Shown: positions 8,203 through 49,800 of the stretch, in pieces
Layout: the number at the start of each line of letters is the position of its first letter
How positions within the stretch are numbered: position 1 is the stretch's first letter
Source of the DNA: Isoetes taiwanensis
Taxonomy: Eukaryota > Streptophyta > Lycopodiopsida > Isoetales > Isoetaceae
DNA length: 64,000 nt
NCBI GenBank assembly: GCA_021234155.1
Contig: JAJEKV010000035.1
Location: forward strand, 3,984,224 to 4,048,223
Direction: 5' to 3'
Program-made: the position numbers and the translations under genes
The notes under the pieces: model-generated
The model's database searches: none
The model's input: the letters and a program-made list of their open reading frames with translations, nothing else
Told to the model about the DNA's origin: nothing

Positions 8203-8329
8203 AATGATCACAATTGACTAACGTACCTTATCATTTTAAATTAGAAAGCTAAGGCTATGCATATATGGTTTACAACCATATATTCTAATGGGTTAGGCAT
8301 GGTAAAACCTTGCCTTTACCTCCAAGAAC

Positions 8330-18400: not shown

Positions 18401-18719
18401 GGGGCCTAAAAGAATCTTTGCGATTTCTGCTCTTGTTCATTGGGTTAGATTCAGTAGTTAGGTTAGATTTAGTAGGTTACGTTTCGCGGGAGATTGTGGA
18501 GTTTCGCGGATGTGGGCAAGCAGGTCGGGTGCATGGTCTGATGCAGGCGCTATGTTTGGAAGGTGCCTCTTTCTGTTCCTGGCAAGCTGGAAGTGGATAA
18601 GATGGGGAATCCGGCCCTCTTACAGTCTATAAATCGTGACCTTGGAGCCGGCTTGCGTACCTAACCAGGTGAGCTTCAGATTCCCTTCTGTTTTTTGCTC
18701 TTCTGTTTGTTTTGTTTCC

Positions 18720-19966
18720 ATGAGGAGGGATGCTAGAAGAGCAGGGCGGGCAGGCAGGAATGGGCAGCCAGAGTCTTCTTCTGGGAGGTCTGGTGTGGAG
18801 GCATGCAGAAATGGTCTTGAGGATGAAGGCATAGGCCTCATAGACGTCAGTGTTACACTGGGTGTGGCAGGCATGGATGCACCCCCAGAGTTCGATGACA
18901 TGCTCGTTAATTTCTGTCAGGAGGACTGTGTCTCAGGTGCTGTTGCAGCGGAGAGGGGGAGTGACTTAGATCACCTGCATTACCAGTGTGTCTTTAGGCT
19001 TGCTCTGAAGTCCCCTAGAGTAGTGAATTTGGCCATGAAGCGGAGGTTTGGGTGGGGAGGTAAGAAGCCTGTGGGGGTTGTTCTTGTTTGTAAGGCATTA
19101 AAGAATACGAAGCTCCATTGTTTTGAGGGGCTAATAGGGTATTGCATGAAGGATATGTGGAAGCCCCACTTCAAGCTGCACACAAAGAATGTTTCTGAGC
19201 GCCAATTGGAGATGGACAAGGACCTGTACTTGCTCTATGGTGCAGGGGACATCAAGCATGTCGTAGTTTTGGATGACAGGAACCTCTTGGGAAGAGCCCT
19301 TCATTTTGTAAACTATGATGGTGGAAGGCAGCTGAGTTCTAGCCTTGTATACACAATCACTAGGATGCTTAGAACCGGTAAATTTGTGTTGTCTACTAGC
19401 TGGATCCTTCCTTCTAACACTGCTTTTATATCTGAGCATAGAGTCAAGTCCGCGTGGCACCTGACACTAAACCCCAGAGTGGCTTTGCCAAGTGATGTTA
19501 GGTGTGTGTTGTATGGCATCCCGGCTGGGATGGAACCCATTCAGCGGATTGGGAAGGCTAGAAAACGCAAGGGGGGTTCACAGTTTTGGGCATATAACCC
19601 ATCTGCATGCACGGGAAGGGTTTTTTGGACCCATTTTCGTACATATACGGTCGGCAGGGGGTCCTTTTTCTGGTTTGCACTATCCTAGGTAATTTTTATT
19701 CGAAAGGGGTCAAAATTTGCTTTTAAAGATCCGTGTACAGGGGGGTTTTTTGCCACCCCATGCACGCAGATGGCATATCCCCCTTATACATGAGTGAATC
19801 CCCCTTGAGAAAACGATACTGGGATGAGGCTGCCACGCCTGGAGACATGGATGAGAACTTTGTGGAAGGGGATGATGATGAATTCAGGCCTGAGGCTGTC
19901 GTGGACATGCCTGGGACTGATTTCATACCTCTTGACACCACGGATTACACAATGGCAATTGGGTGA
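18720..19966 (+). pseudogene. Replitron A transposase (HUH Y1 endonuclease), interrupted by MITE
   Basis: The start at ATG 18,720 is chosen because the homologue in Replitron B also begins MRR. Motif I is DVSVTLG (about residue 42). The metal-binding HUH motif is DHLHYQ (H85, H87). The nicking tyrosine and lysine are in GYCMKD (Y141, K144). This Rep-type domain is followed by a conserved C-terminal region, YGAGDIKH to LVYTITRMLRTGKF, then LTLNPR. A basic stretch at the N terminus may serve nuclear import. Such enzymes cut and join one DNA strand through the tyrosine. A 240-bp MITE sits at 19,568-19,807. Joining 19,567 to 19,816 gives 999 nt, exactly 333 codons, with one frame through to the TGA at 19,964-19,966 and a tail (KRYWDE) matching PRYFDE of copy B. 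The enzyme was therefore intact before the insertion. As it stands the frame stops at 19,688. Confidence 0.9.
19568..19807. mobile_element. hAT-like MITE (240 bp) inside Replitron A transposase
   Basis: The terminal inverted repeats are CAAGGGGGGTTCAC on the left and GTGAATCCCCCTTG on the right. Imperfect inverted homology continues inwards for about 60 bp (CCATCTGCATGCACGGG against CCCCATGCACGCAGATGG). A perfect 8-bp target duplication, AGAAAACG, flanks it at 19,560-19,567 and 19,808-19,815. An 8-bp duplication and CA(A)GGG ends are typical of hAT elements. Removal with one duplication copy restores the host frame. Confidence 0.93.
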
Positions 19967-20053
19967 CTTGTGCTTGCAGGGGGCTGCCTGCAGGTTTTGT
20001 ACATATGTTTGTCTTTCTTTTGATCTTGCATCTTTGTTTGCAGTTATTTCTTT

Positions 20054-20575
20054 ATGCCTGGACTAGAGATGGAACGTGGTGATGGGAGTGTAGGGATGGA
20101 GAGGGCTGCTGCGACCAGCAGCCCTGTTGGAGTTGTCGGGATGAGGTCAACTGATGGCGTGATTAACATTGACAGTGATGAAGAGGCCCCATCTTCCCCT
20201 CCTCACAGGCCTGCTGCTCCCGGGCCAAGTATCCATGATGTAATTCATAATGTTGTGCCCTCTCCTGTTGCCTTCTTTCCGAACAGGGAGCGTGTGCAGG
20301 TTGCTCTGGAAGTTGTCTCAAGCATTGTTAACATTAATACTCTTGCCGAGTCTGTGGCAGCCTCCGTCAGATTGTTTAGGATGCAGCTTGGCCGCCTCTT
20401 TGCAGCATTGGAAGAGGCCGTTTCCCACATGGAGTGGGAAGAGGTGGAGGTCAGTACAGATGAGCGCCAGCATATGCGGGCGCATATGAATCTGGCACGG
20501 GCTCTTCTTCTCAGGGAATTGCGGCGAATTGATGCTTTGGCCAGGCGTCACAATGTTGTTATGAACAACAACTAG
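20054..20575 (+). CDS. Replitron A second gene, unknown function
   Basis: The open frame is 173 codons, with a possible later start at 20,069. It begins 88 bp after the transposase stop, and TTTGTTTGCAG just upstream (ends 20,041) could be a splice acceptor. No known domain is recognised. Visible parts are a Ser/Pro-rich N-terminal third with VINIDSDEE (hydrophobic patch then acidic run, like a SUMO-interaction motif), a helical middle (NINTLAESVAASVRLFRMQL) and a basic, probably helical C-terminus (DERQHMRAHMNLARALL, then RRIDALARRHN). Replitron B has a homologous gene in the same place with IIIVPES, DQRRQLRAQINRLTAL and FDRQNN. Conservation of position and C-terminal motif between two diverged elements argues that it is a true accessory gene. 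It may assist the transposase or bind DNA or host SUMO machinery, but this is inference. Confidence 0.75.
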   Translation: MPGLEMERGDGSVGMERAAATSSPVGVVGMRSTDGVINIDSDEEAPSSPPHRPAAPGPSIHDVIHNVVPSPVAFFPNRERVQVALEVVSSIVNINTLAESVAASVRLFRMQLGRLFAALEEAVSHMEWEEVEVSTDERQHMRAHMNLARALLLRELRRIDALARRHNVVMNNN

Positions 20576-20845
20576 ACATTGGTATGCTTGTATGATTCTC
20601 TGATTTGCTTTCTTCTTGTGTCTTTTTTGTGTGATATGTACTATGCATCAGAAAAGGAACTAAAAAATGGAAAATGGATGTGGAAATGGACTGCAGATCA
20701 GCAAAAAGAGGTTGTCTTTCATTAGAAAAACCAGATTTCTGTGTTTGCGTGGCTTGATGTGATTGAATGTGGAAAAAGGAAATGAAAAAATGAAAAAATA
20801 AAGGGAAAAGCATGGTGTGATTGCATGTGCATGGGAATAGCCCCT

Positions 20846-20906
20846 GCCCTTTAAGGGCGGGCAGATTGCTTGGGCCTGCGCATTGCGCAGGGGGTTAGAA
20901 TCCCCC
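20846..20906 (+). promoter_or_regulatory. Three hairpins downstream of Replitron A genes
   Basis: In order: GCCCTTTAAGGGC (20,846-20,858, perfect palindrome), CCTGCGCATTGCGCAGG (20,875-20,891) and GGGGGTTAGAATCCCCC (20,890-20,906), within 61 bp. HUH transposons commonly use hairpins at their ends as recognition or termination signals. Such a role here is inferred from position only. Confidence 0.5.
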
Positions 20907-21405
20907 AATCTCTTTCCTCATTCCAGTTGTATTTGCAGCAGGGCAGGGACTTATGTTGGTGCAGCCTTGTTTGGTCGTTGCAGACGCCTGCCTCAACTTT
21001 GTGGTGGCAGGCACAGGAAGCTTTTCTTAGACTCCATTCTATTTTCAGTCCCATTGCTATTTTAGGCTCTCTTCTAATCTGGGGTCAATGCAACATTATT
21101 TCCTTCTGCAATGGTTGTCAAGGGGCCTAAAGAATAGGGCCAACTAAGCGTTTGACCCCATCTCCCAATGACGTGTACGGCTGCAATGCTCCTAGAGGGA
21201 ATATCCGAGGGAATATTCTTGCATCATGCGGCTGCCAGTGCACTAGAGAAACCATCAGCTATAAAAGCTTAGGTAGCTATATAAATATGCCTAAAAATGA
21301 TGGTGGTCTTCAAATGTCAATATCCTCCTGTTTACATGAATTAATATGCCAGACCTTGCAAACCGGGTCGGTTCTACGTCAGTTCTACAGTAGACTGACT
21401 GTAAA

Positions 21406-21560
21406 AGTGCCAATTGGGCACATAAATAAGGAGGAATTTAGATGAAAGTGCCAATTGGGCACATAAAGAAGAATTGCGGAGGAATTTAGGGGCATGGGAA
21501 GTGTTGGAGTTGGGCATATCAATAAGGATTGGAGAGGAATTTAGAGGCATGGGAGTCTCG
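21406..21560 (+). repeat. Three short tandem copies with GTGCCAATTGGGCAC
   Basis: Copies beginning near 21,406, 21,446 and 21,500 share GTGCCAATTGGGCACATAAA (GTTGGGCATATCAA in the third) followed by GGAGGAATTTAG. The core is itself a near-palindrome. It lies between Replitron A and the Harbinger element. Confidence 0.6.
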
Positions 21561-21885
21561 GGTTTTGGAGCAGAGGAATTGTTATGAGACTCTAAAACTG
21601 TGAGTATCAATTTTTGATGCAATTCTTATGGGTTGTTCACATGACGGGCCTGTTTATAAGCCCGGACCCAGTGCTGAATCAGCACTGGAATTTGCCCTCA
21701 GCACGGAGTCAGCATCACAAGATGCTCTTTGCGCGGGCTGATGCCCCAAAATCCGTCGAGCTGATACCCCGCTGAGTCCGCCGCTTACTCAGCCATGAAT
21801 CATTCACATGCCCAAACAAAAGAGGATGGGATATCCTCACCAACGACACAATTCCGGAAGCTCTACCATGGAGATCTCTTGAGGT

Positions 21886-22651
21886 ATGGATTTGAATTCT
21901 GTTCCATCTGATTTTTCTGAGTATGAGGAGGATTATGATGTGGTTCCCTCCACCCAAATCCCAACACCTTCTCAAGAGTCTTTTCCTCAAACAGCCCCAA
22001 ATGCCTCTGATATACTTCCTATTTCTGCACCAGAGAAGAAGAAGCAGCTATAGCCACCAAATGCAACAGACAATTTGCTTGATGAGTTTGCTGATGTGAA
22101 GCTGAATGTGATACGAAATGGAAACCTTGGTTCCAAGCATTATGATCTTATTGCAGAGAGGATCAACAGGTATTTATCGGTCAGATACAGGAAAGCAAGT
22201 AAAAAATAGGATGGAATTTATGATAAGGAGGTATAAGCAAGAAAAGGATAAAGAAAACAAAACAGGAGGCACTCCTAGTACTTGGCAGTATTTCGATCAG
22301 CTTGATCAAGTTTTGGGCTCCTCTGCAAAATGTGTCGGACTTCCTGGGGGATCCTCAAATGAAGGATTTAGATCAGGGGACACATCCACATCTAATATCA
22401 ATGGAAATAGGAAACGTAGTGAACCTGATTTGGGTAGTGCTGCTACAGTTCAAAATCAAGGTGCCAAAAAGAAAAAAGGAGTAGACATATTGCAGCAAAG
22501 TGGATTCAAAGAAAATCAGGTTACCGTCATTGAAGATGATGAAGAAGATAGTAACGATGATGGCCAAGGTACTCCAATGAGGGAAGTTGACTTTGCTTCA
22601 CACCTATCGAACCATCTAGTTTCCTTCTTCATATCACACGTAACAGATTAA
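21886..22651 (+). pseudogene. Harbinger Myb/SANT-like accessory protein, broken
   Basis: In PIF/Harbinger elements this protein partners the transposase and helps it bind the ends. The frame opens at ATG 21,886 (MDLNSVPSDFSEYEEDY) and has a TAG at 22,051. It reads on through LLDEFADVKLNVIRNGNLGS and HYDLIAERINR, then must shift by one base near 22,170 to continue as VKNRMEFMIRRYKQEKDKEN and TPSTWQYFDQLDQVLG. Together these are the three-helix SANT-like domain. A Ser/Asn-rich tail with KKKKG and an acidic EDDEEDSNDD run ends at 22,651. One stop and one frameshift make it a pseudogene. Confidence 0.85.
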
Positions 22652-22799
22652 TTTTAATTGCTTGGCACTTTGATTTACACTCAAATCAGCAATAACATAT
22701 CATCTTTATTCAAAACTAACTAATAGTTTCTGTAACACACATAGAAAATAGGAAAGCAAAACAAACATGGATTTCTTGTTGGAAATTTATGGCCTCAGT

Positions 22800-23973
22800 A
22801 GGCCTTGGTCTTGCATATACTTGTATGTTCTTTGGAGAAGATTACCTTCATGGCGTCTACGGCTTTGACCTTGCATTATTGCTCCACCATAAATGTGCAC
22901 TTGACCTTCTACGTTCTCCTCTTCGCCATAAAGCTGCAAGAAATTGTGCAGCACACATCCAAAATCTTCCATCTACCCTTGAGCAGTGCAAAAGCATTCT
23001 CAATTAGAACCCTGACTTGTGACATTTTCTTGAGAAAAAGGATTTGTTCAGGAGTATCATCGAGCTTTCTTCTTGTTACAACCAGCATTGACGATGATGC
23101 TGGATACCCTGAGTCACCCAATAAAAAAGGTTTGACTCTCAATCCACGAATCCTCTTAGTAGGAAGCACAAGAATCTGCCTGGTGATGAGCTTGTTATAT
23201 AAAGGTGAAGTATAAAAATGGCGTGTATCGTGTGATCCTCCTGGTGCATCACAACAGATGTCCCAAAATATTTTGGAAGCATCACACACAGCTTGAAGAA
23301 GAATTGAATGAAAATGATGCCTACACCAATAATCTGCTGGTGTAAACCGGGCTGCTGGTTTGTAGCGCAAAGGGATATGAGATCCATCTATCACCCCAGC
23401 CACTTGGGAAAGACCTGATATGGATTCAAAGTCCTGTATTATTTGTTGCAGTCTGTGACCGTCTGGAGCTATAATGAACTCATTTCTAAGCTCAGTGGCA
23501 AGAATTTCCACTATCATCCTCGTGTACTTGTGCACAGTTGAGACTCTAAGGCCAAATAACTGTGCACAAATAAAGCATTTGTTATTGTGTGCAAGCCTGA
23601 ATACTACACAAGCGAGGGCTTGTGCCTTGTTCACAGGTTCTCTCACACGATTTTCTGGATTTGGCTCAAGTATATGAGGGGCCACAAGCTTCAGTAAAGT
23701 CTCAAAATTATGGGCAGACATTCTATAAAAACGTCTGAAATTAAAATTACCTGCCAATCCTGATTCTAGCCACAAGGAAGAGCTAACATCACGCCAAAAA
23801 GCCTCTTGCCTGGGATATACCCAGAACTCTCGAGTTGTTTGGCAGATCATAGAGAAGAGAACACCCAGCCAACAGCAAATAATCTGTATGATGCATTGAA
23901 ATAGTTGCTCGAAATCATCCTCCCCATCTTCCCGTTCACCGTAATTGAGCACAGGAGGATGATCTTGAGCCAT
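22800..23973 (-). pseudogene. PIF/Harbinger DDE transposase (DDE_Tnp_4), C-terminal frameshift
   Basis: The ATG at 23,973-23,971 opens 354 codons. A helix-turn-helix-like LFGLRVSTVHKYTR lies near residue 140. The catalytic triad is D196 (VAGVIDGSHIP), D287 (FLLGDSGYP) and E325 (VRVLIENAFALLKGRW), so the nuclease core is complete. After GRWKIL the frame runs out at 22,909. The expected CVLHNFL motif appears in the next frame from about 22,945 and continues to about 22,790, showing a small indel. The protein would lack its proper end. Adjacent and divergent to the SANT-like gene. Confidence 0.93.
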
Positions 23974-23995
23974 GGCAAGCCGGAGGAGATATATT

Positions 23996-24204
23996 TCTGG
24001 GAATATCGATTGTTTTTAAGCTAGCTTAACGGCGGTGGGAATTCTGATGATAAAAACACCTGGCCGCATCTGAATACGTGGCTGAATAAAACTGTCAGCT
24101 TCTGGGAATATCGATTGTTTTTAAGCTAGCTTAATGGCGGTGGGAATTCTGATGATAAAAACACCTGGCCACATGTGAATACGTGGCTGAATAAAACTGT
24201 CAGC
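23996..24204. repeat. 105-bp tandem duplication in Harbinger right end
   Basis: 23,996-24,099 and 24,101-24,204 differ at only about three bases (both start TCTGGGAATATCGATTG and end AAAACTGTCAGC). High identity suggests a recent duplication. Confidence 0.9.
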
Positions 24205-24205
24205 A

Positions 24206-24328
24206 CTGACCATGACTCCTCGGCCCAGAGTCGGACGCATATATCCATGTGAATCTACATTTGGCGCTGACCATGACTCCTCAGCCCGGAGTCGGACGCA
24301 TATATCCATGTGAACCCTACGTTTGGCC
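24206..24328. repeat. 61-bp tandem duplication next to Harbinger end
   Basis: 24,206-24,266 and 24,267-24,328 both begin CTGACCATGACTCCTC, contain AGTCGGACGCATATATCC and end TTTGGC. A few substitutions separate them. Confidence 0.88.
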
Positions 24329-24911
24329 AATTCCGACGTGGTTTAGCTTATATTCTTGTGCTTTAAGTTCGCAACTAGTTGAACAAAACAACTGGTAATG
24401 TTTGTGCTAGTAATAAGAAGCTGGGCTTCTCAATCCTGGTTGTGGCAGAATAGGATTGTAGCCAGTCTCCAATTATTGCCAGTAAAGGGAACTGTTGGAA
24501 TCCTGCAATATCAGTTTGCTTTTATGATTGCTATATAAGGCAAGGTTTAGTTCCTGATAAAACTATTTCTCCGATAAAACTGTCCCCAAAGTTTCCCTCT
24601 GAAGATGTAGTTAGAACAGTTTCACATTCAACTTTTAATCTCAGGATTGATAGGACACCGTTAAACAAAATTTTCATTAATCAGAATCTACAACATATGA
24701 TTAATAAGGTGTCAGTCAACCAAGCACATTCGTGCCTGCCATTAATTATAATACATTTTACATCAAATGCTACAGGTTCTCTATCATGGTACAACATAGC
24801 GGCTCTTGGAGTTTCATAGGGCAATGAATATCTCCACAACTGAACATGGGGCTCTCATGAGCAAAATAAATTATTTCACACTGGATATAGCATGTGACCC
24901 ACAAACCCACA

Positions 24912-26818: not shown

Positions 26819-26843
26819 GCTTATAAGGTATATCAACAACCAT
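26808..26843 (-). promoter_or_regulatory. Short uORF overlapping the CID7 start
   Basis: An ATG at 26,843-26,841 opens an 11-codon frame out of phase with CID7 and ends at a TGA (26,810-26,808) inside the main coding region. If the mRNA includes this stretch, as the acceptor at 26,891 implies, it could lower initiation at 26,818. Confidence 0.45.
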
Positions 26844-27982
26844 GGATAAAGGGAAGGCGCATTCTGACAGCATAAAATAACCCAAACAGCCTGAAATAAA
26901 GATAATGTTTGTTAGTGAAGTACAAAAGACAACATAAGTTATATTTCAAAAAGCTGGAAGTTAAAAAAACCTGCACCTACCGTTTCCAAGGTCCAATAAC
27001 GCTAATTTATGGATCACAATGTTTGCTCTTTACCTACAAGTGCCCAGAAACAAAGAAAGTGGATAACAACAATAACCTATCTGGACAAAAAATAGACTAG
27101 CCAATTAGAATGATTACAGTGCAGTCAAAGTAGCACTTACAACTGATAGCCTTAACACAACAAACTCAAATCTGACCAATATAAAGTGGCCAGTCACCCA
27201 CCAGAATTCTAACCTTTTATCATGCCATAGCTATTCCTCTTCACCTGAGTTACGAGACATGGTGGGAGATCCAAATAAATCAAAGAAAAGTATTGAATAT
27301 TCATTTGAGTATTGAATACTTGTTTGTTTTAAACAAAGCATATTTGACAAATCCTTGGGTCACTGCCATTCTAAACAATAACTCTATGAAATGCATAAAA
27401 TGCCTCTATTACAGAGACTCTATAAAGAAAATTGAAATAAAAGACAAAGGCTCTGAAAAGAGGCTGATGGAATACATAAAGCACTTTATGTGCCTTTCCA
27501 TTTGGACCACTTCCTTATCCTACCGGAATTGAAGAACTTCTTGGTTGTGTTTCGTCGTACAAATAAGATGCCTGTCCCGTCCAGTTTCCACTGCTAAAGA
27601 AGCGGTCTATGCCATGCTGTCTCACAGAACTTCGTATAAGTAGAGCGAAGATGTCCCTATTATTAAATTCAACCAGAAAACAACCTATTAGTTTGATGGG
27701 TAACTCCCCAAATCAAATACGGTGAAACCACATAACTTGAAGCCATGCAAAATACAATTTTCTCACATTTCAAGACTCGAACCAAATTGCAAAATATGCG
27801 AGGAGGCAAAATCACAGGAAATTTTAAAATACATTCGAACAAGGTCACTCATATAAAATCCAACCAGGAAATGCTAAAATTTGAAGCCCAAAAGCAACAA
27901 AGCATGAATTCTAAATACCCACAAAAAGAGTGAAGAGATTTAAACAAGATCAAAACCATGGGCCGAAAAATAGAAAGTTTAC

Positions 27983-28250: not shown

Positions 28251-28489
28251 GTATATCTATATCCTATACGTATCTATTACTGTCCTTATCTAATGTCTTG
28301 GTGTAAATGAACCCTGGCCCCCCGTTTTTATTTCACTATTCCGATAAGTTGTTGCAATTGGTGGACGTGATGGTGCTAGTTTTTCTTTAAGGGGAATTTC
28401 TAAATGAGGTATTTACCCTATTTGGCCAAAAAGTCCCTAATTTTTTTATATGGTGTCCATTTAGAAAAATACAAGCAATGACGGTGTTG

Positions 28490-30349: not shown

Positions 30350-30780
30350 GGGCAAATTTTAAAAATGCCCCTAATTTTTTGCAAAATTACGAAAATACCC
30401 CTGTTTTAAGGGTATCTTTGGTAAAATGACCATAACTTTTTTCTGATAATCTATACAGGAATATGTCCTTCAGACAAATTATAGATGAGAATGATATCTT
30501 TCTAAGCAAGCTAAAATTATCTGAATCAGAGTTCAGAATCGTAAGTTATGATTACGATTTGTTTGTGTCTAAGATTTCACATAACTTGTGATTCCAAACT
30601 CTGATTCAGGTGATTTTAGCTTTGATGAGAAGATAGAATCCTCATCTATAATTCATCTGAATGATACATTCCTATTTGGAACATCAAAAAAAAGTTATGG
30701 CTATTTTATTAAAAATACCGCTAAAACAGGGGTATTTTCGCAATTTTGCAAAAAATTAGGGGCATTTTTAAAATTTTCCC
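30350..30780. mobile_element. Foldback MULE-type MITE (431 bp)
   Basis: Almost the whole element is one long inverted repeat. The left end GGGCAAATTTTAAAAATGCC mirrors the right end GGCATTTTTAAAATTTTCCC, with arms of roughly 190 bp around a short centre. A perfect 9-bp target duplication, TTTTTATTT, flanks it at 30,341-30,349 and 30,781-30,789. Long arms plus a 9-bp duplication are typical of Mutator-like elements. It carries no gene. Confidence 0.93.
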
Positions 30781-32185: not shown

Positions 32186-35100
32186 TTGTTGTGCAGCCAG
32201 AATACTTCTACCCCCAAACCCTCCAGAACAGTGTTTCGTCTGAACACCCACTTCTTGACAGATGAAGTCTTCTCGTCTCATTGTCGGGACTTGTGGCTCA
32301 ATACCTTCTCCTCTCTGAGTGGAATGGCAGGCATGGTGGCAGCATTGGCTAGGGTTAAATGTTTTGCTAAGGCTTTTGGTAGGCAGCGAGTTCAGCAGGA
32401 GCGACAGGAACTCCACTTACTCTATGGAGAGTTGGAGCAGATTCGGGCACAACCTTCTGATGGCATCGGGGAGAATGCCATACTATAGCAAATCATATCT
32501 CTAGAGCAGGTCAAAGTTAAGGAAGCTCATGCTGAAACAAGGAGACACGAGCTCTTCGGTTTTCTTTAGGGCAACAAAGCAGCGTCAGTATGCAGCATCA
32601 ATGGCATCCCTTATTTTGTCAGATGGTCGTAAATAGGAGGATCCTGCTGATCTCCAGAGGTATATGCACGGCTATTTTTCAATGTTCTTTGCTAAGCAGT
32701 CGTTTCCATACGAGCAAGAAATGCAGGATCTGGTTTTGGCAGCTGTTAAGCCATCTATCTTGCACCATCAGCGTGATAGTTTGAAGAACTCTCCAAGGAA
32801 GATTTAGAGGGTGTATGTATGTGCATGGTTAAGGATAAGTGTCCTGGGCTGGATGGTGTGCCTGTGGAATTCTTTCAGACTTATTGGGAATGGGCTGGAG
32901 AGTTAGTGTATCAGGTCTATCTTGACTTGTTGCACTCTCATGAAATGGATAGAATTCTTAACACCTCCTGCATTTCCCTGATCCCTAAGGTCAAACAGCC
33001 ATCCACGATCAATGATTGGAGGCCTATTTCTTTGCTCTCCTCTATGTATAAGATTATTGCAAAAGCTTTGGCAGAAAAGCTTAAACTGGTTCTAGCATCC
33101 TCTATTAACTTGGCAACTCTTTTTTAAAAATACTCTACAATATGCCAAGTGGCAAAATTCATTAGAGAGCTACTTGAGAACATTGACAATAGTGAAAAAG
33201 ATACTCTTATCAGTAGAGAGTAGACGTAAAAATTGTAAGAGTTGTCCCATGGCCTACGGGTCTTTGTTGGATGTTAATAAATCTTATTATTATTATTATT
33301 ATTATTAACAAGGTTCAGTCCGGGTTCATCCCAGGAAGAAACATCTTAACTAACGTTGCTGCAACTTATGAGGGCTTGTATTGGGCTAGGAAAACAGGTC
33401 AGGGAGTTGTTTATCTTAAGCTCGATTTTGCAAAGGCATATGACAGTGTGCGCTGGACGTTTTTGTCTAGTGTGCTTTCAGCTTTGGGTTGTGGTCCACA
33501 TTTTACAGAAACAGTTATGAAGCTTCACACGTCAGCACGAGCTACAGTTGTGTGCCAGGGGGAGCCCTCCCCGTTCTTTTCGATGGGAAGAGGAGTTCGT
33601 CAGGGCTGCCCTCTGGCCCCATTTTTGTTTACCATGGTGGCGGAGGCATTATCACAATTGCTCTTGACTGCAGTAGGTGAGGGAGTGGTAGATGGCCTTC
33701 GGATGCAGAACGGCAGTCAGCATATTTGTAATCAGTTTGCAGATGACATTTTCCTCTTTGTGGACATTGGGAAAAGTGTTCGGCTCTGTGGGCTTTGGAG
33801 ACGCCGCCTCCACCTTGTTTGTTTCTCTTCCCTTGGAAGGTACTCTCAGTGAATGCATATACCAGACTTCTGGGCATTCCTTTTGGGGGTAATATCTCTA
33901 TGGGCGGTGTCTGGGATGAGATTTTGTAGAGACTACAAAAGCACCTGAATTGGTGGAAGGGTAGTAAGTTGTCAATGGTAGGCAGGATTACTGTAGCTAA
34001 GTCAATGCTTTGTAGCACCCATGTATACACAACGTCTGTTATGTTAGCTTTAGAATGCAAGGTTCAGGAATTAGATAGAATCGTCCGAAACTTTGTTTGG
34101 GGAGGGGATGCAGAAGGAGCAGTGGTTAAAGTAGCCTGGTGGAAGTGCCTCCGCCCTCGAGAGGATGGGGGTTTGGCAATCCTAGATTTGGCTTTGCATT
34201 CTAAGGTGTTAGTCTCCAAGTTTGTTTGGAGTATTCTCCATGAAGAGGTGTTCTCTCCAGGTGCAGCATTGCTTTTACAGTCCCTCGAGAATTGTGTGGC
34301 GTTTCACAAGCCATATGTCCCTTGGTTTACGGTTTGAGGCCGTGCCCACACGCGTCACCTTTTCTCAAGGGTGTACTGCGGGCCTGGGAGCATGTGCGAG
34401 TGCTTTTTCAGGTAGACTGTGCATCAGTACTTCATTACACTTTTTTCTTGTGGGTTCCTCTGCCTCCGACATACTTGCCTTTGGCTGCCAGCTTGCACGC
34501 TTGGACGCAGGCCCGTTGGACTCGGGCTGCAGTCTCCACCTTAGAGGATTGGTATTGGCATGGCCAACTGGCTCCTTGGGAGTTTTTTCAGGCCCGCTTT
34601 CGGCTTAAGGCAGTGATCGGGCTATCTGGCAGCAAATGGCCTCCTGCATTCTACTGCATATTCTTGTTCTCCTCCAGGGAAGGGTGGGCTTTCAGATTTG
34701 GAAGGTTCATTCGGGAGTCGATGAGTCATGTTTTGTTCGTTCTTGTTACCGGGCGTTGGTTATTCATGATACTTTACCTCCTTCTGACAAGTGGGCACTG
34801 AAGCTTCAGGGTTTCTGTTGGCGCTCTGTCTGGACATGGACTTGGAACTCTCTCCCCCCACCAAAGGTTAGGGTTCTTTTGTGGCAAGTGGTGCACCGCT
34901 GCATTAGGGTAAATGTTCTTGTGCATAGATTTAAGCCAGCTGTGAGTTTTCTTTGCCCTTGTTGTGGCTCTCATCGAGAGTCCATTGAACATTGTCTAGT
35001 CTTGTGCCCACATTTGCAAGATGCATGGGATTGGATCAGAGCATTGTTCCAGATCAGGACGTGTAGCCAGAAGATACTTCTTCATGTGTTTCCAGCTTCA

Positions 35101-35493
35101 TGGTCCTCTCCTAAGAAGCAGGCTTTCCATCTGTGTAAGGCATGGTTGGTTTGGTTGATTTGGAAACGGCGTCGTTTATGGATTTTTCAAGGGATTCAGC
35201 AACTTTCAGCCTCTCTAGTTCCACGACTCAGACATAAGCTATTCCAGAGTTTTCTTATGTTTACTGGTTTAGAGGAGATAAAGTTTTGCATCTGGCGAGA
35301 TATTTTGCACATTGTGAATGCGAATGGGGAGTTTGTACAACGATTGCTAGAGGTGATTGGAAGTTTACGCACTAGTTTTTTAGTATGGAGTGCTGAGGTG
35401 TCTTTGTCCCTTCGGAGCATTCTTTTTCCTCACTACTCGTCTTGTATCATTGCCATTCTTTTAATATAAGTGCCTCAGTTCTTCAAAAAAAAA
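32186..35493 (+). pseudogene. Younger L1-type LINE, ORF2 without endonuclease
   Basis: This copy is 5'-truncated. It starts in the linker after the endonuclease (VFRLNTHFLTDEVFSSHCRD). RT part one is at 32,819-33,109 (PGLDGVPVEFF, NDWRPISLLSSMYKIIAKAL). It is interrupted by a 193-bp insertion and continues at 33,310-33,852 with SGFIPGRNI, LKLDFAKAYDSVRW, GVRQGCPLAP and the catalytic FADD (~33,740). The thumb region (RNFVWGGD, then PREDGGLAI) is at 33,969-34,337. The zf-RVT region (PPPKVRVLLWQVVHRCIRV, CPCCGSHRESIEHCLVLCPH) is at 34,636-35,469. Poly(A) follows at 35,485-35,493. Several frameshifts disable it. It is the same family as the minus-strand copy at 7,449-8,202. Confidence 0.9.
33110..33302 (+). 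mobile_element. SINE-like retroposon with (TTA)n tail inside LINE RT
   Basis: The insertion splits the RT frame between SSIN and KVQSGF. Removing it rejoins ATTAAC to AAGGTT in frame. TATTAAC occurs on both sides (33,103-33,109 and 33,303-33,309), although the TTA tail makes the duplication length ambiguous. The 3' end reads TTTGTTGGATGTTAATAAATC followed by TTATTATT repeats. No clear A or B box is seen, so it could also be a very short LINE end. Confidence 0.7.
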
Positions 35494-36668
35494 AGGGATC
35501 TTTAACTTGACCTGTCGAAGCTTATACCTACTTCTATCCTTTTTACCGATGCTTTTGGACAGAAAACTTCCCTATCACTTAGATGGTACAAGAGGATGGT
35601 GCCAATAGTGTCGAGTATAACGTCAAAATTTTTGACCCAAGCAGAACATGTCAAACTTCAAATCTTGCCACAATTTTGACACTATACTTGTCGTGATCAT
35701 TGCCACAAACATGACACAATAGCGTCAAGTGTTGTGTCAACATTATGCCTCCAATTTTTGTTACAAATGTTGATATAAAATCAATTTCCAACAACACTGC
35801 AACAAGTAGAGAACAAAGTTTCAAATAAATTTTACCAAGACTATGTAGAAAAAGTCAAACATGTAAGAACCACATTGCATCAAATTTATGGCAAGCTAGT
35901 GGTAGCATCATAAAAGATGAATAATAAATGTTGTGTCTAAAAAAAACAAACTTTACAATAGCTTATTCAAGCTTATTCAACAAGTATTGTGCCAACACTA
36001 CAAGTATTTATCCAACAAGCCTTGTGCCAAAGTAAAGCTCATGTTTAGGAACAAAAGCACAAGCAATGTTACTCCACAAATGAACAATCTAGTCACATTT
36101 CACTTTACTAATAGTGTGAAACTTGCAACTCTACTTAGAATCAAGATTACAATTACAGTGCTTAGTAGTACTTTGATCTAAACTGCAAAACAAACATGGG
36201 AGACATAGAAAGTAGAAGTAAAAGTTTTTATTGATCAACAAAAAAGTACAAAGTATTAACACTCATACACAAGCCTTTTAAACATATAATGTAAAATATA
36301 TGGAGTTCCAACATGTCACAAACGATCGAATTCTCTTAGTTGGCTCATGTCCACATCCTAAATAGTACCATTGCCTTCAGACTCCATCATTGTCTTTTTC
36401 ATTGTGGTCCTATCAAAATACATTTATAAAAGTATGTTATCAAACCGTTTCATACATTGAATATTAAACAATAGAACTTCCTTCCCTTACCTCATCCTTT
36501 AGAGCACAATTTTCTCCAAGACAACATATGGAACACATCATTCACTTATTCTCCTCTTGAGGACGGCTGTCAAAGAAGAACAGAACAAGATTTGTGGTAT
36601 CAACACTCCAGAACCTCGTGTAGAAAAATGATTAAGTCCTCTTGAGAATGGATTAACTCCAACCTTAC

Positions 36669-41199: not shown

Positions 41200-41299
41200 C
41201 TTAAGAATAGAAGGTCTGGGAGATCTAAGTAATGTTGAACTCTCTAATCGTTGTTGTCTCTCTAATCGTTGTTGTCTCTTCTAGTTTTAGTTTCTGACG

Positions 41300-44200
41300 A
41301 GGATTGTAAGTTGGAACCTTAGGGGTATTGAAGGACCTTTAAAGAGAAGGAGAGATCACAAATTAAGCAATACAATGCAGACATAATCCTTCTTCAAGAG
41401 CTCAAATTACCTAAGTTTGAAGCCTCTAATCTTGGGGATTGAATTTATCCAGGAGCTTCTTCCATTTGGATTGAAGCTGGTGGAACAAGGGGGGGTTGGC
41501 CATCATTTGGAAGAAAATAAAACACCTCTCCTTTTGCAATAGTATTTCTAGAATGTGGCAGGCAGTTTCTCAGTTAATAATGCCAACTTTGGGGTGATTA
41601 ATGTTTATACTTCCACGAATCCTAAGGAAAGGGAAAGCTTCTGGCCAAAAATCAGCTCATGGATTAGAAACAACCTTTCTATTGATTGGATTCTTGCTGG
41701 GGACTTCAATAACACTCCTGTATGGGATATGAAACTTGGGAATAAAATTAATATGACTTCAACTGAAAAGCTCAGATGGGACAATATGATCAATGACTCT
41801 GCCCTGATCCATATTCCTTCCTCTACTTCTAACTACACGTGGTCAAACAAGCAGAGACATCAAGCTAGAGTTTACTATGCTCTAGACAGATATTATGTGT
41901 CAAATCCTAACTCTGGGTTTTGGGACAATTGTTTTGTAACTAGTGGTGAAGGCACATCTATTTCTGATCATCAGCCTCAATTCCTTCATACTAAGCATTT
42001 GCTTGCTATTCCTAGAGATGGCAATATCCCCTTCAAGTTAAATTGTTCTCTTCTCTAGAATGAAGAGTTCAATAAAGACTTCCTTGAATTTTATCAGAAT
42101 ATTGAGTCTGGGGATCTCCTACTGGCTTTATGAAATCCTTTTATTCCAAGCTCAAGAAGGCAAAAGATTGCATTAAAAATTGGGCTAAAATACGGCATCA
42201 GAATAGAATGAAAGAGAAGGAAATCCTCCTTATCCACACGAAGGAAATTAGATCAATGTTACATGCTGATCCCTTTAATCATAACCTTCAAATTGGGAGG
42301 AAATGCTAGAGAGTCATTTGAAAAATATAGAAGAGAGAGAGGCCAAATGTGCAGCAATTAAATGTAAAATCAAATATAATAATGAAATGGACTATGGCAG
42401 CTCTAAGTTTTTCTTCAGAGTTGCAAGGAATAGGCTTCTGAAGAACTCAATTGCTCAGGTTAGGAATGACTCGGGTACTACTCTTAGCTCAGATTCTGAT
42501 ATCAAAAAATTCTTTATGAAAACTATGCCTGCCTCTTTTTTTGCCAACTCTGTTCCTTCTGCAATTGATGTAAGTAGTAGAAAAAGTTTCATCTCTCAGT
42601 TGGATAATATCCTCTCCACTCCAGCTGATGTTATGGATGCATCCCTTGCTAGTATCCCAAAATGAGATTTTCAATACTCTCAAAAGCTTTAATAAAGGGA
42701 AATCTCCTGGCCCTGATGGATTTCCACCTGAGTTCTATCTCCTTCTGGAATACAATTAAGTCAGATTTGATTGGTCTTATTCATGGCTTTTGGAACTCAA
42801 ACCATTTGCACCCCTCTATCTCTGCTGGATTTTTTGCATTAGTGCCTAAAGTAGAAAATCTGGGCTCCTTTGCTGAATGGAGTCCTCATTGCTCAAAGAG
42901 TCCAACCCTTTTTACAGAAAAATATCAGTAACAATCAATCTCCTTTCTTGCCTAAAAGGTTTATCTTGGATAATTATATAACTGCTATAGAAGAACTTCA
43001 CTGGAACAAAATTTCTAAGCAGACTTGTGTTCTGCTCAAGCTAGATTTTAAAAGAGCTTTTAATACTGTTAAATGGTATTTCATTGACACTGCCTTGAGA
43101 AAAATTGGCTTCCGTCATAAACTCATATCTCTTATCCATGGACTTAACTCTATGTCTAACTTTGCAGTTATTATCAATGGCTTCCCAACCAATTTCTTCC
43201 CTTTTGCTAAAGGGGTGAGACAAGGCTGTCGTCTAGACCCATATTTATTTTTTGTGGTTGCTGAAATGTTTATTAGATGTGTTGATCATTTTCAATCTAC
43301 TGGGACATTTACTGGTCTTAAGCTTCTAAATAATGAAGATTACCTCATTATATCCCAATATGCTGATGACACTTTTGCTTTCTTGGACTCCAACACTCAT
43401 AACATTAATATATTCCTTGACTTAATCAATCAGTTCTCTGATGCCTCTGGAGTTCATCTTACTCTTGCAGAGTAAAATTATTGGTGATATCAGTCAAACT
43501 TCTATATGTGGCATTCCTGTTCTCGGTACCTTGCAGGCCTCTAACTTGCTTGAGATGCCTCTCTCTCCTAAATCCGAGTCTTAAAGGATTATGGAATCCA
43601 ATTCTGGAGAGAATTAATAAGAAATTGAATAATTACAGGAGTTGCTTATCTTTTCCTGCTAGAACCGTGATTGCAAACTCTGTCCTGACATCAACTCATG
43701 TGTATTTCTCATCTGCTTTAATTGCCCCTAGATCTATTTATGCTGATCTGGAGAAAATCATAAGGAATTTCATCTGGAATGGTTCTCATTTAGTTAATTG
43801 GATCTCAATTTCTAGGCCAAAAAAGTTTGGAGGTTTAGGTTGTAAGAATTTGCATATTCAGGATTGTTCCTTAGCTGGGAAGTACATATGGAGAACTCTT
43901 ATGGGTAATGCATCTCCTGCTTCAAAGTTTATTAATTATTGGTTAAATACATCCTATCCCTCGGGTCATCCTTCAATTAAGCATTGCCTCCCTGAATCTG
44001 CTTTTATACATCTGCACCCTGCTCCAAATTCTTCCCCTTTGATGCAGAATACGATTATGGCTTGGAACAAAGTTCAAACTTGCTTTCATAGTGTTAAGAT
44101 GACTGATGCTAATATGAATATTAATCTATTTTGGTCACCTATTTTTCGAAATCATCACTCTAAAGTGCTAGCCATCAAGCATCCCAAATCTATAACAAAT

Positions 44201-45270
44201 GGGCTGAGAAACGCATTTTGAGAATCAAAGACCTCTATAGAGATAACAATTCCTTTACCTCTTAAACATCCTTGAAATCTATTATTGGAGGCACATCTAG
44301 TAATAAGAAATTATATGCTCATTTCAAGAACATTCTTGCTCCATTCAGGAATTACCCTGTTGATAACAGTCCCCTGGGATGGACTTTGAATGGTAAACAC
44401 GTCTACAAGGTAAGTGAAATTTATTCCATTTTTAGTCAAGTGGATGCTCCTGTCAAAGCCATCTATAAATGGTCTTTATTTTATACAGGAATTCTCTCTC
44501 TCTTTAACAACATTTGGAATTCCTATTGTACTCCTAAGATCAGTTTCTTTGATTGGCTCAAAAAAGTTTGACCAATCTTCTGTCCTTATAAAAAAAAATG
44601 GACATTTCCCCAATTTGTCACTCTGGTTGCTTACAGGAAGAATCTATGGAACACATTTTTCTCTGCCCAAAGCTCATCTCATTTTGGTCATGGTTCTCTA
44701 GGTATCTGCGCTATAAGGACATAAGTAACATTCTTTTCTTTCTGCAACAAGATGGCACTTTTGCAAACATCTTAGTGTATACTGCTTTATGGAACATATG
44801 GAAAGCAAGAAATAGAGTTATTTATGGTTCCAAGTCTTTTTCCATTTTCTGGATAGAAATGCATTTTCAACTTGATATTGAATCTATTGCTACTGCTCAC
44901 AAAAAAAGCATGGGGAGAACTACAACAGAAACTGGGACTCAATTGGGCTTTACAGGGGCTCTTCTGATATTTTCATATCCAATTTAAACATTATTGATTC
45001 TAATGCACCTTTCTCTGATTGTGACAGAATATCTGAACTTCATTAAGGGTCAGGGAACACATAAATTTGACACTGATATGGATAATTATGAGGTTTCTCT
45101 CCATTGGCCAAAGAACACAGGAAAACATCTCACTCTACGAGAACTCTGTGCTGCCACAGATGAATTTATATAAGAAATTGAGAGATCTAGATCAAAAGAA
45201 GCAGAATGGGCAGGAATCTACTGTAGGGAAGTGGTACAGATGTATTACTTGTTTGAATTCCTTTACATGA
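41300..45270 (+). pseudogene. LINE ORF2: endonuclease, reverse transcriptase, zf-RVT
   Basis: The endonuclease begins RIVSWNLRGIEGPLK at 41,302, with ACG where the ATG would be. It continues with LLQELKLP, GDFNNTP (about 41,700) and the catalytic SDHQP (about 41,967). RT motifs follow: SPFLPKRFILDNYI, LLKLDFKRAFNTVKW, GVRQGCRLDP and YADD (about 43,360). The thumb has FIWNG and RPKKFGGLGCKNL, and the zinc-binding end has MEHIFLCPK and ALWNIWKARN near 44,650-44,800. Stops and frameshifts are spread throughout, so the protein is dead. Beyond 44,990 the sequence to the poly(A) is long for a 3' UTR and has further open pieces of unknown nature. Confidence 0.9.
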
Positions 45271-45893
45271 CACATTTTAGCATGACTGTGAGACAGTTGA
45301 GCAAATACAGGGAGGTGTACTACAGTCACAAGCTTTTAGCAGATCTGTATTGAACATTCCTCATCTTGATGGCAAAATATATCTTCTCTCTTCATCCAAA
45401 ATGGCTCGGAGCACAACATATATATTCATGGCTCGACTGGAGAATTATATAGACACTACAATGAATCGTTTGATGCCCAGCTGCTGAAAAGAACTCTCAT
45501 ATAGCCTTCTATTAAACTTCTCCTTCCAGCTTCATCTTCTTACAATCTCGGCTAATTTGAACTTTGCTCCTCATCAAATCAAGGTCATGGTTGGTATTTT
45601 TTGCTTTTACACGATCTTGAAGACTTTTCAATTGTCTGATACAGCTGCAAACATTACACTAAAGGGGATATTCAGCATAAATTTTTAGTCTACATTAACT
45701 GCAAACTACATTTCAAAGACTTCAATTCCAGTTAATGGAATCAATTTTTGGTTACCTTTGTTATTAGTGTTTGTTTTATGATGTCATCTTCACTCCTATA
45801 CCTCTCTGCTCATTTAGCAGATTGTTATATGGCTTGTATGGCCTTTTCTAGTTAATGAAAAAATCTACTCTTATTCTAAAAAAAAAAAAGAGG

Positions 45894-47680
45894 TGCTGCG
45901 CAGGTGCTGCGCACGAGGGGTTGCCCTTCGGTGGCCCGAGAGTGTGTTTTCATGGGTTCTGTTTCGTTCTTTTGTGTTGGGTCTTGTTTGTGTGTTGGCA
46001 GGTCACCAACTGTTGCATTGCTACTGTACATCCTTTGCTTTGATTACCCTTCTTACTAACGTCATATACAACCTTTGTTGCCAATTGCTTGGAGCTATCC
46101 TCCAGTATATTGTTGTTACATGTGGGGAGCAATTCGAAACGCAAGTGGCATGTGGCTCTTAACATTCATGACAAGACTCGAAAAACATTGTCATAACAGA
46201 CTTGATAGAGAAACTTGCAAATGTGCTTGTATCCTTGGGAACCTTCCATCAAGTAATGTGGCACTGTTAAGTTTCTGCCCAATAAACATCTATTGTTATT
46301 ATTCATCATTGAGAAACTGCATTGACCAACCCATCAATTCCATCTGACATGAAATAGAAAAATATCTTTCGGCAAATACAACAAAACCATGAATAATAAC
46401 TACTTAATGCCCATATATAAGAATATCTAGCATTATAACAGGGGGTTTTTTTGTGATTTTATACGCTTTTTCGCATGGTTTTCCTATGATTTTAGTGTTG
46501 TATTCATTGGGCCATACTAAATAGTATTTCTAGAGGGCGGCTTTTTTGGAGCGTTGATCTTGATTACCTTCAACAATCTAACGGTTGCTATTTTGACCTC
46601 CTTATTCATATGCATGAAACCAGAAAAGTTCTCTTCTCTAAAAAGTTCTGGTGGAGGTGTTGTCGATCCGTCCTGTTGATCCGTTTTGCTCTGTCTTCAT
46701 TCAACAGTTTTGGTATGCAAGATTTTGCTTTTTTGTTTGCTAACAATGTTTTTTGTTTCAATCGTATTTGGAATATCTAGCATGAGTATGGCGAACAAGC
46801 ATTCATAAAAAAATCCGTTCTTGATTCTGTTTTACAGCATTAGTTCCCTGAATTTCATGATCTTTCATGGCAGATATTTAAAAAAATCGTTCTTGATTCT
46901 GTTTTTGTTCTTCATTCATCTTTTTTGTACATTTCAGATTTGGTGTTGTTTTATTTGGTATTGCTTTTCAAAATCTGAAACCTGCAGGCAAATATCTAGC
47001 ATGCAAAATTGGAGATCGAGATAGATCTTGCAGTTTTTCCCTAAGTTTATCTTCCTCAACTTTACCTCTGAAAACCATTGGCCCCTCAATTCGAAACTGG
47101 AGCTATGACTACACTTTCTTAATGGCAGAATCTGCCTGACACAGCCTGGCCACCATAGCCAGGTCTTGAAGTTTTACCCTAAGTCTATGTTGCTGGAGTT
47201 TACCTCTGAAAACCATTCGCCCATAGGCCGAAACTGGAGCCATGACTTCACAATAACAAGGAGCAGAATCTGCCTCACACAAATTAGCTGCTATAGCCAC
47301 ATCTGCTGAGCTTTTATTCTGTAAACCCTCCAGAACCTGTGTCTAGCATGCTAAGATATTCTGTTTTCAACATCTAGCAACGCCAGAGTTATATTCGGCC
47401 CTCAGAATGCCCTATTCGATCGGATTTCCATGCCTTCCAGTAAGCAGCTGCCATCATCGATTGCACAAACCCTAACCGTGCCCTAATTCCGGTTGTCTCG
47501 AAAATCCCATTTTTCTTGACCTTTACTTCCTTAACTATTTCCCTTTAGAATTTTAAATGTCCCCCTTCCTTTCAATATCTACTGCCCATTCTTTAAGCTT
47601 CAAAATTTAAAATCTCACCCTTCCTTTCAATATATACCATTATAGCCATTGTTTAAGTTTCTACGCAAAAATCAAATGCT
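45894..47680. other. Intergenic between LINE and Replitron B; repeats
   Basis: The dispersed repeat of 188-285 recurs just after the LINE poly(A), with GGTGCTGCGCA doubled. 47,030-47,160 and 47,165-47,300 are a diverged ~138-bp tandem duplication (TTTACCTCTGAAAACCATT, CGAAACTGGAGC.ATGAC and GCAGAATCTGCCT in each). AATATCTAGCAT occurs at 46,422, 46,772 and 46,991. No gene is seen. Confidence 0.55.
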
Positions 47681-47838
47681 ACAATATCTAGCAATATCTA
47701 ACATTATAACATCTACTATATTAGTCTTTATGGTTTGCTAGTATTAGAAGCTTGTGTTACTCATATTATTACTACCATTACTAGTTATTAACAATTGTGT
47801 TGTTTTTTTAATGCTAGACATTACATCTAGATATTACA

Positions 47839-49170
47839 ATGAGACGAATGGCACGAAACAGACGAGGCACAGGCTCAACATCACGAACGGGAGTCATGCA
47901 GGCAGAAGGCGTCACGTATGAGATAAATCACCCTGTACAAGAAAATGTCGTCGAAGCTGAAGAGGCCCAAATCAACAAACGTGTTGAGGTATTTTGCAAC
48001 ACATTACATCTAAATAAGTCTCCGCCATGTCAAGATCCTGGACCATCTAGCCCTATTAGAGATTGCAGTCATGTCAGGCAGACAAGAAAAGGAAAGCAAC
48101 CTCTTATTGAAGATGATGATACAGATTTGATTAGCATTCATACGTCTAGCTCAAGTAACATAGATTATTCTGAAAATAACCAAAGAAAAAAAAAAAGAAA
48201 AAGAACAAAGAAGCAGGGGAAGAACAAGCAATAACGCAAAACTAAAGGGCCAGTTGGTGATGTATCCATAACAATAGGAATTGGGGGTACAGATGTTGAC
48301 CCAAAATTGATAGACAATATCTTAGAGTTCTTTATTGAGCATTGTCATGCAGAATTAGTTGCAACAGAGCGTGGATCAAATATAGATCATTTGCACTTCC
48401 AAGCCACAGCCAGACTCAAAACAGTAGGAGTCCGGGGTGCTGCAACATTACTCAAAGTAGCTATGAGATGGAACACCACAAAGCCAGCTGGAGCCAAAAT
48501 AATGTGCAGGACATTAAAGGACACAAAGCTGCATTGCTTTGAAGGTATGTTAGGTTATTGCATGAAGGACTTTGGAAAGCCTCATTTCAGTGTGCGCATG
48601 CATAATGTCTCATCAGCAGAATTGATGAGAGGGAAAGAAAAATATGCAATGTATGGAGCAGGAGAAATCAAAGATGAGGTTTGTCTAGATCCTAAAAACT
48701 TACTCCTCAAAGTCCGTCACTTTGCGAATTATCGCATGGCCAATCGTCGTAAGCCACCCCTGACATTCACAATCACAGAGATGATCAAGACAGGAAAGTT
48801 CTGTCTCAGTACACAATGGGCTATACCTACTAATGGCCAAAACATAGACCAAAGAAAAGTTGAAGCTGCATATGATCTAATGATGAACCCATTCCAAGCA
48901 ACCCATGAGAATGTATCGTTAGTTCTTTATGGGCCACCGAATAATGATCCAACACGCCCGTCAAGAGCCCGTAGCAGTAATCCATTTGCTAATCCCCCAA
49001 GGTACTTTGACGAGCACCAGCCTGTTAACGAAGATCCAGACAAAATCATTGAAGCACATATTGCAGACAGACTCCAAAATACAATTGTAGTTGGAGATTT
49101 GGGTGATAGCGAATTATCCTCACCAACTGGAACTCATCTTTTGCAGCAGAGTGACACTTACGGGTATTGA
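47839..49170 (+). pseudogene. Replitron B transposase (HUH Y1 endonuclease), one premature stop
   Basis: A single frame of 444 codons runs from ATG 47,839 to TGA 49,168-49,170, broken only by a TAA at 48,232-48,234 (codon 132). The N-terminal part holds an acidic patch and a strongly basic run (RKKKRKRTKKQGKNK), a likely nuclear signal. After it come motif I DVSITIG (about 141), the HUH motif DHLHFQ (H184, H186) and GYCMKD (Y240, K243). HUH-to-Tyr spacing is 56 residues, exactly as in copy A. The C-terminal region keeps YGAGEIKD, LTFTITEMIKTGKF and LMMNPF. Relative to A the N-terminal linker is about 100 residues longer. The stop is the only visible defect. Confidence 0.92.
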
Positions 49171-49273
49171 ATAGAATACTATAGTAATTGTCATCTAGTT
49201 TAATATCTAGTATAATAACATATTATTTCATTACGTTCTCATTTACTCAATCTCATCAATTTGTTTTGTTAAT

Positions 49274-49688
49274 ATGCAAATTATAGAAGCCCCCAATGAA
49301 TCACCTCCAAGTGCCATCCTCGCCATTCCTGAAGTAAGCAATAATGTGGAGCTCGAAATTATCATAGTACCAGAAAGCCCAACAGTTGAAGTTCAAGTTA
49401 GTTCCTCCGCCATCAGCACAACCACCACCTCCACATGGCGAGGACCCTATTGACGTTATGTCACTGTGGTTAGTTGGATACATCAATGACATGCGCTCGT
49501 CTATGCAACAAATTCGTAACGCACTGAACTCAATTGAGAACTTCATTCTTGATGCGCACATTCGTTTGGACATAGATCAGCGGAGGCAATTACGTGCGCA
49601 AATAAATAGGCTAACTGCCCTCTGCAGGTTGTTTGATAGGCAAAACAACGAAGATGTGTATCACATCTTAAGCCGCTATCCATATTGA
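49274..49688 (+). pseudogene. Replitron B second gene, frameshifted
   Basis: It begins at ATG 49,274, 103 bp after the transposase stop, with MQIIEAPNESPPS and then ELEIIIVPESPTVE (SUMO-interaction-like patch). That frame closes at 49,454, but the homologous continuation is in the next frame from about 49,386: VPPPSAQPPPPHGEDPIDVM, then MQQIRNALNSIENFIL and the conserved DQRRQLRAQINRLTAL..FDRQNN, ending 49,688. One frameshift or a small unannotated intron separates the parts. The C-terminal motif aligns with DERQHMRAHMNLARALL..LARRHN of Replitron A. No known family is recognised. Confidence 0.7.
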
Positions 49689-49752
49689 ATGCTTCAAAAT
49701 TGATATACTACTTTTACTATCTCCAATGACTAAATAAATTTATAAATAATAT

Positions 49753-49800
49753 GCTTTAAAAGCGTATGTAATTGAATTACATTATGCTATAATATTATAG
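49753..49800 (+). promoter_or_regulatory. Three palindromes downstream of Replitron B genes
   Basis: GCTTTAAAAGC (49,753-49,763), GTAATTGAATTAC (49,768-49,780, perfect) and CTATAATATTATAG (49,787-49,800, perfect) fall within 48 bp, 65 bp after the second gene. The arrangement parallels the three hairpins of Replitron A, although AT-rich DNA makes palindromes likelier. Confidence 0.4.

Follow-up and report, generated by a model that had tools for sequence, protein, structure and literature searches.

In a stretch of 64,000 nucleotides from the genome of Isoetes taiwanensis (assembly GCA_021234155.1, contig JAJEKV010000035.1, positions 3,984,224 to 4,048,223 of the forward strand; the whole stretch is called the window) there are two transposable elements, A and B, which add members to the already recognised class of Replitrons. 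We hold with considerable confidence that A and B are Replitrons of two long-separated, multi-copy lineages, that they encode a single-tyrosine HUH enzyme and a helical accessory protein from a second gene (gene 2), and that both copies in the window are broken. The elements and their genes are, in window coordinates:

18306..21264, plus strand: Replitron copy A, whole element, with the ends ATAAGG...TATAA; the sharp ends are common to its relatives, the flanks are unrelated.
18720..19688, plus strand: A gene 1 as it stands, the open reading frame of the HUH transposase with the Replitron_HUH match; its last part lies inside an insertion.
20054..20575, plus strand: A gene 2, an open reading frame of 173 aa, predicted to be helical, with homologues 3' of other HUH genes and a ratio of non-synonymous to synonymous substitutions (dN/dS) of 0.49 within the A family.
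46422..50270, plus strand: Replitron copy B, with the 5' end AATATCTAGCATTATAACA; 50270 is the last base common with relatives.
47839..48234, plus strand: N-terminal part of B gene 1, ended by an in-frame TAA (48232-48234) at a place where relatives are open.
48235..49170, plus strand: HUH and C-terminal part of B gene 1, with the Replitron_HUH match and Replitron_C at 16 bits (cut-off 27).
49274..49688, plus strand: B gene 2, a broken frame with a shift between 49368 and 49453; open in the relatives L013, L025 and L026.

The assignment is carried by the curated Pfam profile Replitron_HUH. Both gene 1 products exceed its cut-off of 28.5 bits, A with 52.8 bits (E 6.7e-14) and B with 74.9 bits (E 9.4e-21), which bears out what an earlier model-made note on this DNA, the sequence-only reading, had called Replitron-type HUH transposases. 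That reading had allowed for a best profile match to a non-HUH family; no such Pfam family is over its cut-off for the gene 1 products. The Pfam search of gene 1 returned no helicase family, and the profiles of the viral Rep endonuclease and of the IS200/IS605 Y1 transposase gave no match at E up to 10. Motif I (DVSVTLG in A, DVSITIG in B), the HLH motif and GYCMKD can be read in both HUH frames as quoted in the earlier note. The spacing of 56 residues which it gave between HUH and tyrosine is indeed identical in the two proteins, yet 56 is the offset from the first histidine to the tyrosine; 53 residues lie between the second histidine and the tyrosine. Both values recur in a metagenome protein, P0001. 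Across 25 rows (20 loci fetched from this genome, A, B, two A-family copies and P0001) HLH, the tyrosine and the lysine of YCMK are kept without exception. A frame as long as the respective HUH frame appeared in none of 1000 first-order Markov resamples per region.

P0001 was the one relative at E ≤1 when a two-row A/B alignment was run against a protein database of about 5.8 billion sequences and the best 7991 candidates, i.e., those sharing most words, were scored. It carries Replitron_HUH at 64.3 bits. The B gene 1 product alone returned no relatives from the protein database, and neither phage records nor viral and prokaryote contigs supplied a confirmed one.

Protein identity, silent sites and a tree support the earlier claim that A and B are two separate lineages in one genome. 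Their gene 1 proteins are 42% identical over 264 aligned residues. In 224 codons identity amounts to 57%, 62% and 31% at the three codon positions, and at four-fold sites A and B agree in 7 of 36; silent sites are thus saturated, even as the protein was conserved. In a tree of the 25 rows, arbitrarily rooted and with P0001 flagged by the program as a long branch, A groups with all rows except the B family and P0001 (18 rows, support 98/99), and A and its family fall inside a clade of 15 rows (100/98). Linking rows at 80% identity yields six groups from this genome; P0001 stands alone.

Both lineages are multi-copy in this genome, and the copies are dispersed. The assembly comprises 1,658,258,908 bases in 1110 contigs. 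All 150 Replitron_HUH matches which were scored, from 2165 first-look candidates, lie above the cut-off, a number which is a lower bound and biased to the best-scoring lineages (copy B is listed, copy A is absent). Nine of the 150 contain a stop inside the domain. None of 14 control genomes has a match. DNA searches yielded at least 114 matching pieces for A (best 40 of 2141 candidates scored) and at least 108 for B (best 40 of 6314), where several pieces may come from one copy and each list contains the window's own copy. Two A-family copies, L032 and L041 (G000:C1035:820979-825733), are arranged head to tail, the second one being 5'-truncated.

In each element gene 1 is followed on the same strand by a second frame, an arrangement which recurs across lineages. 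To this extent the two-gene layout proposed by the sequence-only reading stands, whereas homology between the A and B gene-2 products is unproven. Downstream of the HUH gene a gene-2 homologue is present in 17 of the 20 fetched loci, with A-side matches in 12 (L009, L010, L012, L014, L017, L018, L019, L020, L021, L022, L024, L028) and B-family matches in five (L013, L015, L025, L026, L027); in some, e.g., L015, L018 and L024, it is fragmented. L011, L016 and L023 have neither a homologue nor a detectable remnant. In the alignments listed their similarity to relatives ends before the gene-2 point, and they appear 3'-truncated. These loci were taken from the top 23 rows of the Replitron_HUH list, three of which were passed over (two with a stop, one without), so the sample leans to well-preserved copies. 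Gene-2 matches were also seen in all 20 A-family loci from the DNA search, several in pieces; this is no independent count because gene 2 was part of the fetching query. The gene-2 profile of the A family matches that of the other A-side lineages at 99.5% probability.

The gene-2 products fall into no family that we could name. Pfam has none for the products tried and NCBIfam none for those of A or B; PHROGs gave weak matches only (E 0.1 or worse) for B gene 2 and none for that of A. The gene-2 product of L010 has no sequence match in the PDB, and A gene 2 has no homologue in the protein database. A model of the A product displays two helices, 78-128 and 135-172, at a mean predicted local distance difference test (pLDDT) score of 66.5; Foldseek returned nothing for it at E up to 0.001.

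Do A gene 2 and B gene 2 encode related proteins? Homology appears likely but is unproven. The two genes occupy the same place and strand and are of similar size, a stretch RA..N...AL is common to both in the joint alignment, and the two-helix layout of the A model may be counted in favour as well. Outside the B family, the B profile reaches a single locus, the A-side L021 (E 0.01). It is possible, if distinctly less probable, that the products are unrelated and that the lineages gained different small helical genes at one place. The direct comparison leaves room for this: BLASTP of A against B gives E 0.012, and a score as good as that of the actual pair arises in 104 of 5000 double shuffles. 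When the 156 other window frames are ranked against the B frame, that of A comes third, two unrelated frames scoring higher; a global comparison of the C-terminal parts is equalled in 477 of 3000 cases. The B-family profile attains a probability of 0.2% against the A family and of 4.1% against the other A-side lineages.

Irrespective of this relationship, gene 2 is a real coding gene under purifying selection, with weaker constraint than gene 1. This is concluded from the median dN/dS (Nei-Gojobori, copies with long open frames only), which for gene 2 is 0.49 among 28 pairs of eight A-family sequences, 0.28 among 10 pairs of five B-family sequences and 0.27 in a third group of six sequences (11 pairs giving a value); for gene 1 three groups yield 0.29, 0.22 and 0.14, from 21, 15 and 3 pairs respectively. 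One might regard gene 2 as a chance or relic open frame instead of a gene. Indeed, the B frame is not longer than expected by chance, its length being reached in 169 of 1000 resamples counted from ATG and in 83 of 1000 counted from stop to stop, and 0.49 is a fairly high ratio. We consider this highly improbable, as the homologues at 17 of 20 loci, the range of 0.27-0.49 and the third codon positions, which differ most in each of the three groups, speak against it. The 173 aa of the A frame were reached in just 8 of 1000 first-order Markov resamples.

The extent of A is defined by its relatives. They start at window position 18306 and stop near 21264, with unrelated flanks outside, which gives an element of 2959 bp, insertion included; position 18401, where the region described earlier began, is not its edge. 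The left end is visible in 18 of 21 A-family sequences (20 loci and A) and reads exactly ATAAG in 15 of these 18, the others being L031, L035 and L038. ATA occupies the last places in 14 of 15 right ends, most commonly as CATAA (7 of 15); L055, which has the same left flank as L033, is omitted from the right-end set. The A family has no terminal inverted repeats.

Two other proposals for the ends were discarded. Direct repeats of GGGGCCTAAA at 18401 and 21122 are at odds with the ends at 18306 and 21264 as placed by the relatives, and are at chance level (about 0.33 of 2000 resamples hold one as long). A joint scan for terminal repeat and target duplication around each copy alone was equalled by Markov resamples in 137 and 113 of 300 cases. 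Among five stretches near the termini which were folded for hairpins only 20830-20930 stood out, weakly (z -2.35). The 5' end of A (18306-18349) resembles a leader stretch of B (47728-47773) with an exact 11-bp match, GGTTTGCTAGT; 2 of 300 Markov resamples were as good. The leader stretch is not the end of element B.

Neither copy is intact, contrary to what one might have supposed. In A gene 1 is interrupted:

19568..19807, no strand assigned: nested, MITE-like (miniature inverted-repeat transposable element) insertion of 240 bp in A gene 1, absent from relatives, with terminal inverted repeats paired at 13 of 14 positions.
19560..19567 (left) and 19808-19815 (right), no strand assigned: 8-bp target duplication AGAAAACG flanking the insertion.
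19816..19966, plus strand: displaced C-terminal tail of A gene 1, joined to gene 1 in the relatives L035 and L050.

Four relatives (L030, L031, L035, L050) pass this site without the insertion. Its 14-bp terminal inverted repeats were read by eye; from such ends and the 8-bp duplications we presume it to be a MITE, with a hint of the hAT type. The frame of gene 1 now stops at 19688, within the insertion. On the evidence of the relatives an intron in A gene 1 was abandoned in favour of the nested insertion, and they likewise replaced bounds of 19599-19773, derived from inner inverted repeats, by 19568-19807. At the level of sequence the relatives show that the tail belongs to gene 1, because family copies run continuously into it; a comparison of A with B over the gene-1 tail alone reached no significance (1071 of 3000). 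The spacings to gene 2 had been given as 88 bp for A and 103 bp for B. The latter is right, but in A 87 bases lie between, counted from the tail, which is in another frame behind the insertion; the uninterrupted relative L035 also has 87.

Counted up to the last base which relatives also have, copy B is 3849 bp long. Position 49800, the end of the region described earlier, is therefore inside B, as the match to relatives extends to 50270. The B-family 5' start, AATATGTAGCATTATAACA, is exact in four of five relatives, with one mismatch in L015 and in B itself. The 5' end motif AATATGTAGCATTAT recurs inside L013, L015, L025, L026 and L027 in both orientations, mostly with mismatches; these internal repeats are perhaps binding sites. 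At the other end one segment requires mention:

50041..50102, no strand assigned: segment of which, by comparison with relatives, many B-family copies hold an inverted version past their 3' part.

At least 10 relatives run about 14 bases past the last match of B and then into an inverted copy of this segment; from this continuation the 3' end of B itself looks incomplete. In at least four B-family copies (G000 C1047, C1048, C1038, C1073) the equivalent of 50041-50270 is found in inverted orientation next to the element (in C1073 just a part), as if the stretch between inverted arms had flipped. B is damaged in both genes, by a stop ahead of the HUH domain and by the gene-2 frameshift. No ATG precedes the HUH motif in the HUH frame, and the TAA at 48232-48234 cuts off the N-terminal part which bears the start; L026 and L027 have open frames at this place.

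How do A and B compare with known systems? In PMC10741241 Replitrons are reported from green algae and non-seed plants; they measure between 900 bp and 4 kb, carry direct repeats of 5-11 bp but no inverted repeats at their termini, and have target duplications of 2-8 bp. A and B share with Replitrons the HUH domain over cut-off (PF21859 and PF21860 are the Replitron Pfam families), the single tyrosine and the lack of a helicase; A has no terminal inverted repeats, and the lengths, about 3.0 kb for A and about 3.85 kb or more for B, are within the 0.9-4 kb given in PMC10741241.

A number of observations weigh against the assignment. The A-family ends share only ATA(A), which falls short of the 5-11 bp repeats given in PMC10741241. 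In nine copies with both ends kept and an exact ATAAG on the left, a target duplication of at least 3 bp beyond ATAA was seen in none and one of 2 bp in a single copy. Since ATA(A) is shared without further target duplication, it may represent a duplicated target or else a terminal repeat of very small length. The second Replitron profile, Replitron_C (cut-off 27 bits), remains sub-threshold in B (16 bits) and P0001 (23.9 bits) and was not reported for A in the Pfam search. The evidence for a relationship between the gene-2 products is weak. Finally, the structure check proposed by the sequence-only reading was run on B and gave a poor model (mean pLDDT 54.7) with generic ferredoxin-like folds as top structural matches. 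No HUH enzyme was among the listed rows of the PDB sequence search, Foldseek and VIA-align, a weak test with models of low confidence.

Other HUH systems fit less well. Helitrons are eukaryotic HUH-type transposons with two catalytic tyrosines and a helicase; gene 1 of A and B has no such Pfam match, and no helicase is fused to the HUH domain. The prokaryotic IS200/IS605 elements possess a single-tyrosine HUH transposase without helicase and often a second gene. Unlike these, A and B do not match the transposase family, and gene 2, being without a Pfam match, is no TnpB. The Rep of CRESS-DNA (circular Rep-encoding single-stranded DNA) viruses likewise carries motif I, HUH and YxxK in this order. 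That A and B are endogenous Rep genes of this kind, with gene 2 as the remnant of another viral gene, is nevertheless the least credible of the alternatives, for the HUH motif, the YxxK-type motif III and the weak resemblance which Foldseek finds between the B model and two models of CRESS Reps (E 0.013 at probability 0.25, E 0.016 at probability 0.60) are opposed by Replitron_HUH as the matching Pfam family, no Rep or other family being over its cut-off, by the missing helicase domain, by dispersed, multiple copies which share fixed ends and the gene pair, and by the failure to confirm any relative in viral contigs or phage records. Two further structure searches of low-confidence models displayed no Rep rows.

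The window contains additional repeats. About 1.6 kb to the right of A lies a transposase frame (22909-24015, minus strand; DDE_Tnp_4, 73 bits), which we take to be of the PIF/Harbinger class, and about 1.6 kb to the left a Copia-type retrotransposon fragment (15618-16733; Pol_BBD, zf-CCHC, gag_pre-integrs). Reverse transcriptase pieces of the non-LTR (long terminal repeat) type are located at 33271-35469 (RVT_1, zf-RVT). Between 34729-35494 and the opposite strand of 7450-8203 there is a 71% match, and 30350-30780 is a long imperfect palindrome with an 80% match to its own reverse complement.

Replitrons are said to have been named by Craig in 2023 (PNAS e2301424120), and to our knowledge their movement has been little tested. 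A mechanism for A and B can be sketched by analogy with the HUH superfamily; the data themselves provide the motifs, the spacing, the lack of a helicase match, dispersed copies, the A-family ends and a selected gene 2. The histidines of HLH would hold a metal ion, and the tyrosine of GYCMKD would attack single-stranded element DNA and form a 5'-phosphotyrosine link. The bound strand would then be rejoined at a new site. Strand separation would be left to the host, because no helicase domain is encoded. Gene 2 probably supplies a small helical accessory protein which acts most likely on the ends of the element or jointly with the transposase; our guess is an end-binding or oligomerising partner.

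It is the accessory gene 2 that makes these Replitrons interesting. A far-reaching and rather doubtful extension would be that the Replitrons of this genome are two-gene elements throughout, with an unrecognised family of small helical accessory proteins which was kept for as long as the lineages have been separate and is indispensable for transposition, where it might bind the element ends or handle strands as a partner that stands in for the missing helicase. With HUH-domain matches numbering 150 or more, with six or more lineages among the 20 loci and the window, and with a companion gene under selection, a defined two-component system is at hand for testing, for which the A family offers clear element ends. 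If gene 2 is undescribed, this changes what any transposition assay must express.

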